From assembly GCA_938049385.1 (NCBI GenBank), contig CALIBQ010000024.1, positions 1 to 55,423 of the forward strand: a DNA stretch of 55,423 nt. The letters are read 5' to 3'. This DNA is from an uncultured Anaerolineae bacterium. Lineage in GTDB: Bacteria; Chloroflexota; Anaerolineae; JACIWP01. The notes beneath the pieces were generated by a model. It searched no databases. It was not told the origin of the DNA and saw only the letters and a list, made by a program, of their open reading frames with translations. Below, one piece after another: positions 7,729 to 10,752 of the stretch (within the stretch, counting starts at the first letter, position 1; every line of letters begins with the position of its first letter). The translations under genes and the position numbers were made by a program.

Positions 7729-8286
7729 ATGCGACCTACCGAACTGTTGATGGAAGAGCACCGCGCCATTGAGCGCATGCTGCGCATCGTGGAGGAAGTG
7801 TGCCGCCGGCTGGAAGCCGGCCAGGATGTCCCTGCCGGCGACCTGGAAGAGATCGTCGAGTTCATCCAGGTCTTCGCTGACCGCTGTCATCACGGCAAGG
7901 AAGAGGACCTGCTTTTTGCTGAGATGGAAAAGGCCGGCATCCCCCGCCAGGGCGGCCCCATCGGCGTCATGCTGGTAGAGCACGAGCAGGGCCGCGCCCA
8001 TGTGCGTGCGGTGAAAGAGGCAGTGGCGAAGTACAAAGCCGGCGATCGTTCCGTCATCCCCACCATTGTCCGCAACGCGCTGGGTTATGTCTCCCTGCTC
8101 CAACAGCATATTTACAAAGAGGACAACATCCTCTACCGCATGGCGGACATGCACCTGTCAGAAGAACAGGAGCGTCAACTGCTGGAAGGGTTTGAGCGGG
8201 TCGAGCAAGAGCGCATCGGGCCAGGCCGGCATGAGGCCTTCCATGCACTGCTGGACCGCCTAGAGCAAACATACGTACATCATTAA
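7729..8286 (+). CDS. Hemerythrin HHE-domain protein
   Basis: A 185-aa all-helical protein with spaced His/Glu positions of the HHE cation-binding fold. These include LLMEEHRAIERML at the start, DRCHHGKEEDLLF at about residue 50, MLVEHEQGRAHV at about 82 and LQQHIYKEDNILY at about 125. Such proteins hold a di-iron centre that binds O2 or NO. GGAGG stands six bases before the ATG. It is directly upstream of, and co-oriented with, an unusual heme-copper enzyme, so a role in NO or O2 handling is a reasonable inference. Confidence 0.88.
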   Translation: MRPTELLMEEHRAIERMLRIVEEVCRRLEAGQDVPAGDLEEIVEFIQVFADRCHHGKEEDLLFAEMEKAGIPRQGGPIGVMLVEHEQGRAHVRAVKEAVAKYKAGDRSVIPTIVRNALGYVSLLQQHIYKEDNILYRMADMHLSEEQERQLLEGFERVEQERIGPGRHEAFHALLDRLEQTYVHH

Positions 8287-8290
8287 TGTC

Positions 8291-8337
8291 GTCATGACAC
8301 ATTCGGTGCGCGAAAAGGCCTCTTGGTATGGTATACT
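8291..8337 (+). promoter_or_regulatory. Possible promoter of the heme-copper operon
   Basis: The 211-base spacer between the hemerythrin gene and the subunit IIa gene holds a good -10, TATACT (8332-8337), but no convincing -35. An 8-base palindrome GTCATGAC lies at 8291-8298, centred near -49.5 if transcription starts near 8344. A GAAGGAGGTGA stretch at 8371-8381 looks like a ribosome site, but no plausible coding start goes with it except a GTG overlapping it (8378). The rest of the spacer shows nothing clear. Confidence 0.3.
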
Positions 8338-8497
8338 ATTATCAGGAGCCTCTGCGCGGCTGTGAATAGGGAAGGAGGTGAACTGCCCTGGCCGGCTGGG
8401 GTGGGCTCCCCGTACGCGCCGTACTGCCATTCCGTATTTCTCTCCGATCACAACCTTCGTCTTTCCAACCATTTGTCAGCAGAAAGGAGTGGAACCG

Positions 8498-8602
8498 ATG
8501 CATCCGACCGATGTCGTCTGGTGGGGGTATACCGCGTTCCTGGTGTGCGTCGTTGCCTTCATGGTGTTCTTCGCCGGCAAAGTGCGCGCCAGAGGAGGGT
8601 AA
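8498..8602 (+). CDS. 34-residue heme-copper oxidase subunit IIa-like protein
   Basis: A tiny ORF, 34 codons, encoding one transmembrane helix (about residues 7-26) ended by basic residues (KVRAR). AAAGGAG lies nine bases before the ATG, and the next gene starts three bases after its stop. The ba3 oxidase of Thermus has a subunit IIa of the same length and topology encoded at the same place, just before subunit II. The order IIa-II-I here is the same. Identification rests on size, topology and position, because the sequence is too short for a firm homology claim. Start alternative: GTG 8378 would add 40 unlikely residues. Confidence 0.7.
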   Translation: MHPTDVVWWGYTAFLVCVVAFMVFFAGKVRARGG

Positions 8603-8604
8603 TC

Positions 8605-9027
8605 ATGGACAGGGAAGAACGCATCTGGCTGGGTGTGCTGGTGGCGGTGTTCCTGATTTTCAACGCCGTGACGTTATCCCCGCTGGTGCCCTGGCAGTCA
8701 TGGATGATCTGGTCGCGGCCGGCGCCGGCGCGCGTTGTGCAGATTGACATCGCCAATTACCAGATGAACCTGCCGGCCGGCGGCATCGAGGTGAAGGCCG
8801 GCGAGTTCGTCGAGTTCGTCGCCACCTCTCGCGACGTGACATACGGCTTCGGCGTCTTCCGCAAGGACGGCACCATGGTCTTCCAGATGCAGGTGCTCCC
8901 CAAGTATCAGAACCGCATCGTCTGGAAGTTCGACAAGCCGGGCACCTACGACGTGCGCTCGACCGAATATTCCGGGCCTAAACACCCTGGGATGTTCATC
9001 CCTGACGCCATCCGCGTGGTTCCGTGA
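8605..9027 (+). CDS. Heme-copper oxidase subunit II-like cupredoxin lacking CuA
   Basis: 140 aa: one N-terminal membrane anchor (about residues 8-28), then a short cupredoxin domain as in ba3 oxidases. The C-terminal motif STEYSGPKHPGMF aligns with the CuA motif CxxxCxxxHxxM, but both cysteines are serine (119 and 123). The upstream CuA histidine of DVxHGF is tyrosine (Tyr80, DVTYGF). His127 and Met130 remain. A binuclear CuA centre therefore cannot form, and the subunit cannot accept electrons from cytochrome c in the usual way. The start is the ATG at 8605 after GAGGAGG. The next gene follows by 14 bases. Confidence 0.85.
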   Translation: MDREERIWLGVLVAVFLIFNAVTLSPLVPWQSWMIWSRPAPARVVQIDIANYQMNLPAGGIEVKAGEFVEFVATSRDVTYGFGVFRKDGTMVFQMQVLPKYQNRIVWKFDKPGTYDVRSTEYSGPKHPGMFIPDAIRVVP

Positions 9028-9041
9028 GAGGAGGAACAGAC

Positions 9042-10703
9042 ATGGCACGCATCGGCTGGATCGAGAAATGGACCCTACGCTTCGCCGTCGTCGGACTGCT
9101 TTTCCTGGCCCTGAGCGGGTTTGAGGGCATCCTCATGCGCTTCCAGCTTGCCGCACCAGGCTCACTGCACGGTATGGAAGCCGCGCTGAACACCATCCGC
9201 CCGGTAGGCTATGAGCCGACTTCGGAGGAGCTGTACTACAGCATGCTTACCGCCCATCCCATCGTGGGCATTTACGGCTTCGCTTATATGTGCGTCATAG
9301 GTGCCTTTTATTTCCTGGTGCCGTTCCTGCTGGGCAAGCAGATACGGCACAAGCGGCTGGTGCCGGTGAACTTCTGGCTGCAAATTATCGGTGTGTTGAT
9401 CTGCTGGGGCGCCGGCTTCTTCGCCCTCTTCAACGCCCTCTACACCCTGTACTGGCCCCTGCCGGTGGCTTATGACCGTGTGCCGCTGGCCGGCAGTATC
9501 ATCTATTCCATCGGCCTCCTGCTCATCGAGGCCAACGTCCTGCTCTTCGCTTTCAACTTGTTCAGTACCGTGTTGAGCAAAAGCAACCCGCGCTCCTACA
9601 GCTTCGGCCAGTTCCTTGCCTCTGCTTTCGGCATCTCGCGGCTCCTGCGCTGGCTGGGCCTGAAAAAGAAAGAGGACGAGTTCGAGCCGATCTACAACGA
9701 ACTGCCGGTGTTTCTGGTGGCGGTCGGGCGCGGTTCCATTGATACCGTCATCAACGCTATCGTACTGCTGACGGCGGCGGTGCTCATTCTGGTCTACGGC
9801 CTGCCGGCCCTGCTGGCTGGCATCCGCCTGGACCCTATGGTGGTGGACCCGCTCATTTACAAAAACTGGTTCTGGTGGGGCCTCGATATGGTGGCCGACG
9901 GCAACGTGCTGATGTACACCGCCGGCGTCTGGTACCTCTTGATACCCCTCCTAGTAGGCCGCAAGCTCTACGGCGAGAAGGTGGTGCGCACCGTTATCTT
10001 GGCAGACCTGCTGGTTTCCATGTTCGTCTGGAGCCATCACCTGCTGGGCGATCGGCCCCAGCCCTTCGGTCTCAAGCTCCTTTCCGGACAGTTTGTTACC
10101 TGGGGCGAGTTCTTCACCATGGGGCTGACCATCTTTGCCTCCCTGATGACCATCTGGCTGGCGCGGCCGGTCAAGTTCTCGCCGGCGCTGAAGTTCGTGC
10201 TGGGCTCCATCTTCGGCTTCGTGATGGGCGGCGCGGCCGGCCTCATCCAGGCCAACGTCGGGCTGAACCTCATCTTCCACAACACGCAGTGGGTCGTCTC
10301 CTTACACGCCCATACCTTCCTGTTGACCGGCCTGGGGACGCTCATCTTCGCCGTCATCTATGCCCTGGTACCGATGCTGACCAAGCTCGAAATCCGCAGT
10401 CAGAAGCTGGTGAACTTCCACTTCTGGGCTTGGATGATCGGCAGTGTCACCATGACGTATTTCATGGGCCGCGCCGGCGCGCTGGGCATGCTCCGCCGCA
10501 CCCTGTACCCGGTCCCCAACCCCTACCAGCCGTACATGACCATCGCCATCATCGGCGCTGTCATCATGGCGCTGGGGTTCCTGGCCTTCCTGGTGAACAT
10601 CATCAGCACGTTGGGGTTGAAGGCGGTGCTGGGCTTGGCCCTGCCGGAGCGCTCGCTGGAACAGCCGGCCGCTACCGGTGCCGCGGCAGTCGCCGAGAGC
10701 TAA
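9042..10703 (+). CDS. Divergent heme-copper enzyme subunit I, NO-reductase-like
   Basis: A 553-aa polytopic protein related to B-family (ba3) oxidase subunit I. Low-spin heme ligands fit His72 (TAHPIVG) and His424; the high-spin heme ligand fits His422 (LHAHTF). The CuB histidine pair is present (His332-His333, WSHHLLGD). The helix VI motif WWxGHPxVY reads WWGLDMVAD: Asp282 stands where the third CuB histidine belongs, and Asp286 where the cross-linked tyrosine belongs. Loss of that tyrosine argues against O2 reduction. Substituted active sites of this sort are described for non-canonical NO-reductase families of this superfamily. ATG 9042 has GAGGAGG upstream. A terminator follows at once. 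Confidence 0.85.
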   Translation: MARIGWIEKWTLRFAVVGLLFLALSGFEGILMRFQLAAPGSLHGMEAALNTIRPVGYEPTSEELYYSMLTAHPIVGIYGFAYMCVIGAFYFLVPFLLGKQIRHKRLVPVNFWLQIIGVLICWGAGFFALFNALYTLYWPLPVAYDRVPLAGSIIYSIGLLLIEANVLLFAFNLFSTVLSKSNPRSYSFGQFLASAFGISRLLRWLGLKKKEDEFEPIYNELPVFLVAVGRGSIDTVINAIVLLTAAVLILVYGLPALLAGIRLDPMVVDPLIYKNWFWWGLDMVADGNVLMYTAGVWYLLIPLLVGRKLYGEKVVRTVILADLLVSMFVWSHHLLGDRPQPFGLKLLSGQFVTWGEFFTMGLTIFASLMTIWLARPVKFSPALKFVLGSIFGFVMGGAAGLIQANVGLNLIFHNTQWVVSLHAHTFLLTGLGTLIFAVIYALVPMLTKLEIRSQKLVNFHFWAWMIGSVTMTYFMGRAGALGMLRRTLYPVPNPYQPYMTIAIIGAVIMALGFLAFLVNIISTLGLKAVLGLALPERSLEQPAATGAAAVAES

Positions 10704-10715
10704 CAACCAGGAGCA

Positions 10716-10752
10716 AACTCCCGCGGGGCAATCCCGCGGGAGTTTTTATTTT
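10716..10752 (+). terminator. Rho-independent terminator after heme-copper operon
   Basis: A perfect 12-bp stem (10716-10727 with 10733-10744, loop GCAAT) is followed by a T-rich tract. The trpA stop codon, on the other strand, lies inside this T tract, so the hairpin separates two convergent operons. Confidence 0.92.

Follow-up and report, generated by a model that had tools for sequence, protein, structure and literature searches.

A probable gNOR-type nitric oxide reductase with an aspartate at a CuB histidine position in Chloroflexota and Bacteroidota

The window analyzed here, a 55,423-nucleotide stretch of DNA from an uncultured Anaerolineae bacterium, carries a set of three consecutive genes on its forward strand. 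The last of these, located at 9042..10703, is a 553-aa ORF with an ATG start preceded by GGAGGA, and its match to the Pfam COX1 domain (E=7e-65, residues 11-508) confirmed the preliminary description of this gene as encoding a heme-copper enzyme. Based on the ORF, the COX1 match, residue conservation and the phylogenetic trees, we annotate it as the predicted subunit I of a gNOR-type heme-copper NO reductase with an aspartate ligand. It is preceded by a gene for a 140-aa membrane-anchored cupredoxin lacking CuA (subunit II, 8605..9027, + strand) and by a gene for a 34-aa peptide with a single transmembrane segment (MHPTDVVWWGYTAFLVCVVAFMVFFAGKVRARGG, subunit IIa-like, 8498..8602, + strand). 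Further upstream, on the same strand, a gene at 7729..8286 encodes a 185-aa YtfE-like protein with an HHE domain (Pfam Hemerythrin, 3e-21), whose match to the NCBIfam YtfE model, 4.8e-7, is under the cut-off of that model; given the 211-bp gap that follows it, this gene possibly belongs to a separate transcript. Directly 3′ of the subunit I stop codon, an intrinsic terminator was located at 10715..10745 (+ strand), with a 14-bp stem including 9 G-C pairs and a T-rich tail. The terminator search returned 3 sites in the region compared with 2.4 expected by chance, and we accepted this site because of its stem length and position. The genes beyond it lie on the opposite strand and, from our reading of their sequences, presumably correspond to trpA/B/F/C; thus, the three-gene unit is self-contained.

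The NCBIfam CoxB model matched the ORF 8323-9024 with 1.2e-5, and this match, together with profile matches to CuA subunits, identifies subunit II as a cupredoxin and not a heme c protein. In its CuA site, the first histidine is replaced by tyrosine and both cysteines are replaced by serine (DVTYGF...STEYSGPKHPGM). Both serines (STEYSG) are present in 17/17 subunits II, and the tyrosine (D[VL]TYG) is present in the members inspected. A profile built from the subunits II of the family scored 58-78 bits against those of sNOR-type enzymes (5/5), at most 43.5 bits against the B-family and at most 25 bits against the A-family; judged by these profile scores, subunit II is nearest to that of the sNOR-type NO reductases. 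A peptide like the 34-aa one is located upstream of subunit II in most of the Chloroflexota relatives, while in Bacteroidota subunit II carries a membrane segment resembling it as an N-terminal fusion; we take the small peptide to be similar to subunit IIa of the three-part I/II/IIa gene set of the ba3-type oxidases. Additionally, in three Bacteroidota (L103:9534-9995, - strand, L100 and L102), a gene immediately preceding that of subunit II encodes a 154-aa protein with four membrane spans, which resembles the first part of COX1 with an E-value of 1.3e-7, below the cut-off.

The window protein carries the helix VI motif KNWFWWGLDMVADGN, and the consensus of this motif in both phyla is YKN[WFI][FY]WWGLD[ML][IV]ADG. 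In this motif, Asp282 (codon 9885..9887, + strand) replaces the CuB/FeB histidine, which is kept by every other family examined. The assignment of Asp282 to the CuB histidine position, already made in the preliminary description, is sustained by the anchor residues that precede helix VI and fix the register: the two-residue anchor (K-N in this family and in the sNOR types, R-T or Q-H elsewhere) lies six residues from the ligand across the families compared. Furthermore, in the MAFFT alignment, the column of Asp282 is occupied by histidine in each of the 25 sequences from the sNOR types and the A and B families used for comparison. The HMMER pairwise alignment against A-type oxidases slips by one residue and places Leu281 at the CuB histidine position. 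We propose Asp282 as a putative third ligand of the second metal, beside His332 and His333.

The five other ligand histidines are kept, as previously described: His72 in helix II (codon 9255..9257), a low-spin heme ligand conserved without exception in the family and the heme-copper oxidases (HCOs) compared; His332-His333 in helix VII (codons 10035..10040), the CuB/FeB ligands; and His422 and His424 in helix X (codons 10305..10313 for His422-Ala-His424), ligands of the catalytic and low-spin hemes, all on the + strand. Together with Asp282 and Asp286, they are invariant in 13/13 Chloroflexota sequences and, with Glu356, in 20/20 sequences from Chloroflexota and Bacteroidota. Glu356 (codon 10107..10109, + strand) is a helix VIII carboxylate peculiar to the family, since the other families compared have A, S, V, I or L at this position; Thr363, also in helix VIII of the window protein, is alanine in the Bacteroidota members.

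The catalytic position lacks a tyrosine. Asp286 (codon 9897..9899, + strand) had been aligned with the catalytic tyrosine, an assignment that stands by the +4 spacing from the helix VI ligand and fails in the MAFFT alignment, which places Gly287 there; the alignment is therefore uncertain by one residue, and Asp286 is at the tyrosine position or adjoins it. Under either alignment, the earlier observation that the cross-linked tyrosine is absent holds. Asp282 and His332 are 50 residues apart, a spacing that is 49 throughout the measured sNOR, A-family and B-family sequences, and Trp297-Tyr298 is back in register with the B-family W-Y pair; therefore, one extra residue is located within helix VI, after Asp282. 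One more extra residue is found in helix X, between H413-N-T and the H422-x-H424 pair.

Scanning of the named genomes identified 13 family loci (the window and 12 others), all in Chloroflexota-labelled MAGs and 66-95% identical, including Anaerolineae, Thermoflexia, a Juan de Fuca MAG and a sulfidic-cave MAG, as well as one distant Bacteroidota oxidase. Only 2 of the 301 genomes sampled from the phylum carried the family. A profile search of 296 Bacteroidota genomes retrieved clear homologues (WWGLD..AD) in 8: seven were full length (464-489 bits), and the eighth was divided between two contigs. The next protein scored 77 bits. The search of viral contigs found no relative of subunit I. Among plasmids, window subunit I retrieved only distant O2 reductases and no Campylobacterota or Aquificota gNOR, and a Bacteroidota member retrieved two weak A-type matches from Haladaptatus; the plasmids supplied the sNOR reference sequences used for comparison. 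In G301 (L032/L062 and L043/L066), the MAG with the closest homologue, the gene also occurs in truncated form on a different contig, with 94% identity to the window gene; this second copy reflects either a strain mixture or a duplication.

Between the window gene and the closest homologue (L032), dN is 0.029 and dS is 0.41, for a dN/dS of 0.07; the family is under strong purifying selection, in agreement with the earlier statement that the protein is under selection. This value also bears on the idea that the protein is a heme-copper paralogue with a sensory or another non-NOR role, as the altered second-metal site and the loss of CuA might suggest. With the same dN/dS, and with all the heme ligands, two histidines of the second metal and the two-subunit organisation kept across two phyla, we regard such a role as scarcely plausible.

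In the maximum likelihood trees, the family forms one clade with supports of 100/100 and 100/99, separated from the A family at 100/99 or better and from the B family at 100/100. It lies on the same side as the sNOR types with supports of 92/76, and 94/89 in the reduced set. The stem of the clade is about 1.45 changes/site, and all the stems in the trees are long. By itself, the subunit I profile gives the sNOR types no higher rank than the A and B oxidases, and neither a union of the clade with A (p=0.095) nor one with B (p=0.23) is rejected by the AU tests. It is firm that the clade does not nest within the sampled O2 reductases; its sister group is not firm. The preliminary description had named nesting among O2 reductases as an outcome contrary to NO reduction, and the trees place the clade outside the sampled A and B families. 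Its comparison with the B family was not borne out as a placement, since the clade falls outside B and its union with B is merely not rejected. Two long-branched Bacteroidota subunits I, L084 and L095, have asparagine at the tyrosine position (KNLTYWFGHMYIN and KNYVFFFGHTLVN, respectively) and are probably sNOR types.

The AlphaFold model of subunit I (pLDDT 71, pTM 0.77, with low confidence at residues 275-281 and 330-340) matches HCO structures over residues 4-528, with Z scores of 33 for cbb3, about 31 for A-type and 30.6 for cNOR (4xyd). As modelled, the protein is confirmed to have the HCO fold; because these Z scores are nearly tied, the structure gives no family call.

The window genome is 98% complete, and the family gene is its sole COX1 gene; the same applies to the other Chloroflexota carriers, with two copies or pieces in G301. 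As the sole COX1 protein in these genomes, the enzyme could be a quinol oxidase that reduces O2 despite lacking the cross-linked tyrosine, in slow O2 scavenging in micro-aerobes, and the UbiA gene that adjoins the family gene in L042 and an NDH-2-like gene in G192 suggest a respiratory setting. Nevertheless, known O2 reductases keep the tyrosine (PMC8756737, Table A4), the clade lies outside the A and B families, and cytochrome bd, found above the cut-off in the window genome and six other Chloroflexota carriers, would serve for O2 in at least these genomes; we consider an O2-reducing function very unlikely. The ba3-type B-family O2 reductase of Thermus thermophilus shares with the family the HCO fold and the three-part I/II/IIa-like gene set, but the B family has the histidine and the tyrosine of helix VI and CuA in subunit II, and the clade falls outside B at 100%. 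We rejected a B-family O2 reductase on the missing tyrosine and on the monophyly of B without the clade at 100/100.

Hemerythrin genes adjoin the family gene in the window, L032, L034 and several Bacteroidota, and weaker hemerythrin homologues are located within about 3 kb of it in L039 and L040. Crp/Fnr regulators are found near the family gene in L040, L042 and four Bacteroidota loci, and Rrf2 regulators in two more Bacteroidota loci. Hemerythrins and regulators of the Crp/Fnr and Rrf2 types are the usual company of NO-response genes, although they are not exclusive to NO: hemerythrins and Crp/Rrf2 regulators serve in O2 and Fe-S sensing as well. Two other neighbours were observed. A protein in which DUF6448 is fused to a hemerythrin domain is encoded upstream of the enzyme in Bacteroidota (L103:10417-11475, - strand). 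Downstream of the enzyme, L039:9741-11117 and L041:4102-5418 (+ strand) encode multi-membrane-span proteins of 459 and 439 aa, respectively, with no Pfam match and with many conserved histidines (71, 127, 209, 219, 221, 274, 364 and 366), which may bind heme.

Neither NirK nor NosZ was found in the Chloroflexota carriers, and no full NirS was found in them, the NirS matches being short fragments. In Bacteroidota, NosZ is not enriched among carriers (3/8 vs 10/34), and full-strength NrfA is present in five Bacteroidota carriers only. We counted these NirK, NosZ and NirS results, together with the AU tests, the subunit I profile and the O2 and Fe-S sensing roles of such neighbours, as points against a gNOR-type NO reductase. 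Nevertheless, NO reduction is favoured because the tyrosine is absent and aspartate replaces the histidine in 20/20 homologues from two phyla with a dN/dS of 0.07, and because the clade lies outside the O2 reductases of the A and B families, subunit II resembles that of the sNOR types and the neighbours include hemerythrin, Crp/Fnr and Rrf2 genes. The reduction of NO to N2O is thus the most likely function as judged from sequence, in agreement with the function preferred in the preliminary description.

To our knowledge, gNOR (NorGH) has never been purified. It was reportedly proposed from sequence by Hemp and Gennis in 2008, Sievert in 2008 and Murali in 2024. In certain NOR types, an aspartate replaces a CuB/FeB histidine (PMC3475470, citing Hemp and Gennis 2008 and Sievert 2008), a passage that does not name gNOR but cites Sievert 2008. 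For gNOR, listed in Sulfurimonas, Sulfurovum and Persephonella, aspartate is given as the active-site residue, along with a cupredoxin subunit II and no proton channel (PMC8756737). Additionally, gNOR is described as quinone-oxidising and non-electrogenic (PMC8906906) and is counted among the proposed, uncharacterised families (PMC11388526). The family described here has both the aspartate in place of one CuB/FeB histidine (Asp282 in 20/20, histidine in 25/25 comparators) and a cupredoxin, not heme c, as subunit II; with an aspartate at or next to the catalytic tyrosine position and quinol as the proposed donor, it may resemble gNOR, to which it is likened by description, in these respects as well. 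In contrast, the known gNOR hosts are Sulfurimonas, Sulfurovum, Persephonella and Methylomirabilis, while the present family is found in Chloroflexota and Bacteroidota. Based on these literature features, and not on gNOR sequences, we regard the enzyme as probably a gNOR-type nitric oxide reductase linked to quinol.

The alternative that the family is an NO reductase family distinct from gNOR with the same chemistry, a sister of sNOR/gNOR and possibly nNOR or an unnamed clade, finds some basis in the deep, isolated position of the clade on its stem of about 1.45 changes/site, in the one-residue insertions in helices VI and X, in the private Glu356 and in the fact that gNOR was compared by its literature description only. 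Nevertheless, as reported for gNOR or NORs of its kind, an aspartate stands in for a CuB histidine and another lies at or next to the active-site tyrosine position, and the literature portrays gNOR as quinol-using and without proton channels; we therefore consider a distinct family unlikely. We assign a similarly low probability to a separate NOR clade defined by a 2-His-1-carboxylate site like that of non-heme iron, by the additional residues found in helix VI and helix X and by a CuA-less subunit II, which would be the sole heme-copper enzyme of a thermal/subsurface Chloroflexota group.

The other NOR families were also compared. The sNOR (NorSY)/qCuANOR enzymes, such as those of Ruegeria (Silicibacter) pomeroyi (L096) and Thermomicrobium (L097), share the KN anchor before the helix VI ligand, have the closest subunit II by profile and are tree neighbours; an Rrf2 regulator is located beside the Ruegeria sNOR and two Bacteroidota family members. 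However, sNOR keeps three CuB histidines, asparagine at the tyrosine position, CuA and a spacing of 49 instead of 50; identity with sNOR was rejected based on Asp282 and the lack of asparagine at the tyrosine position. Identity with eNOR, which has glutamine at the tyrosine position (PMC8756737), was rejected since Asp286 or Gly287 occupies it here. With cNOR and qNOR, the family shares a carboxylate at +4 from the helix VI ligand, a glutamate in helix VIII and, for cNOR, the fold (Z=30.6). However, cNOR combines three histidine ligands with a heme c subunit, where this family has an aspartate for one histidine and a cupredoxin as subunit II; Asp282 and the CuA-subunit-like subunit II led us to reject cNOR.

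In the mechanism that we propose for the gNOR-type reading, electrons would reach subunit I independently of CuA, with quinol as their simplest source and probable donor; the loss of the CuA cysteines in 17/17 subunits II fits this choice. By sequence, His72 and His424 make up the low-spin heme site and His422 the high-spin heme site, and the second-metal site retains His332 and His333, with Asp282 in the place of the third histidine. At the second metal, iron would be favoured over copper because of 2-His-1-carboxylate chemistry. Two NO molecules would bind at the heme/non-heme metal pair and be reduced to N2O and water. In PaNOR, the +4 carboxylate of helix VI and the glutamate of helix VIII are represented by Glu211 and Glu280, and conserved glutamates in cNOR carry protons or stabilise the metal; by analogy, Asp286 and Glu356 may do the same. 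In these Chloroflexota, where neither NirK, NosZ nor a full NirS was found, the removal of NO, or the respiration of NO made by others, is a more likely role than full denitrification.

The substitution is less new than the preliminary description implied, since an aspartate for a CuB/FeB histidine has already been reported for certain NOR types (PMC3475470) and aspartate is given as the active-site residue of gNOR (PMC8756737); the family is therefore best filed as a probable gNOR type in Chloroflexota and Bacteroidota and, by its literature features, looks like a further branch of gNOR. Profile libraries label such genes as cytochrome c oxidase. Chloroflexota MAGs, some of them thermal or subsurface, that encode no other heme-copper enzyme and need just three genes for this one would open carboxylate-bearing heme/non-heme sites to direct study of their chemistry, and the annotation of N2O sources in these lineages would be corrected.
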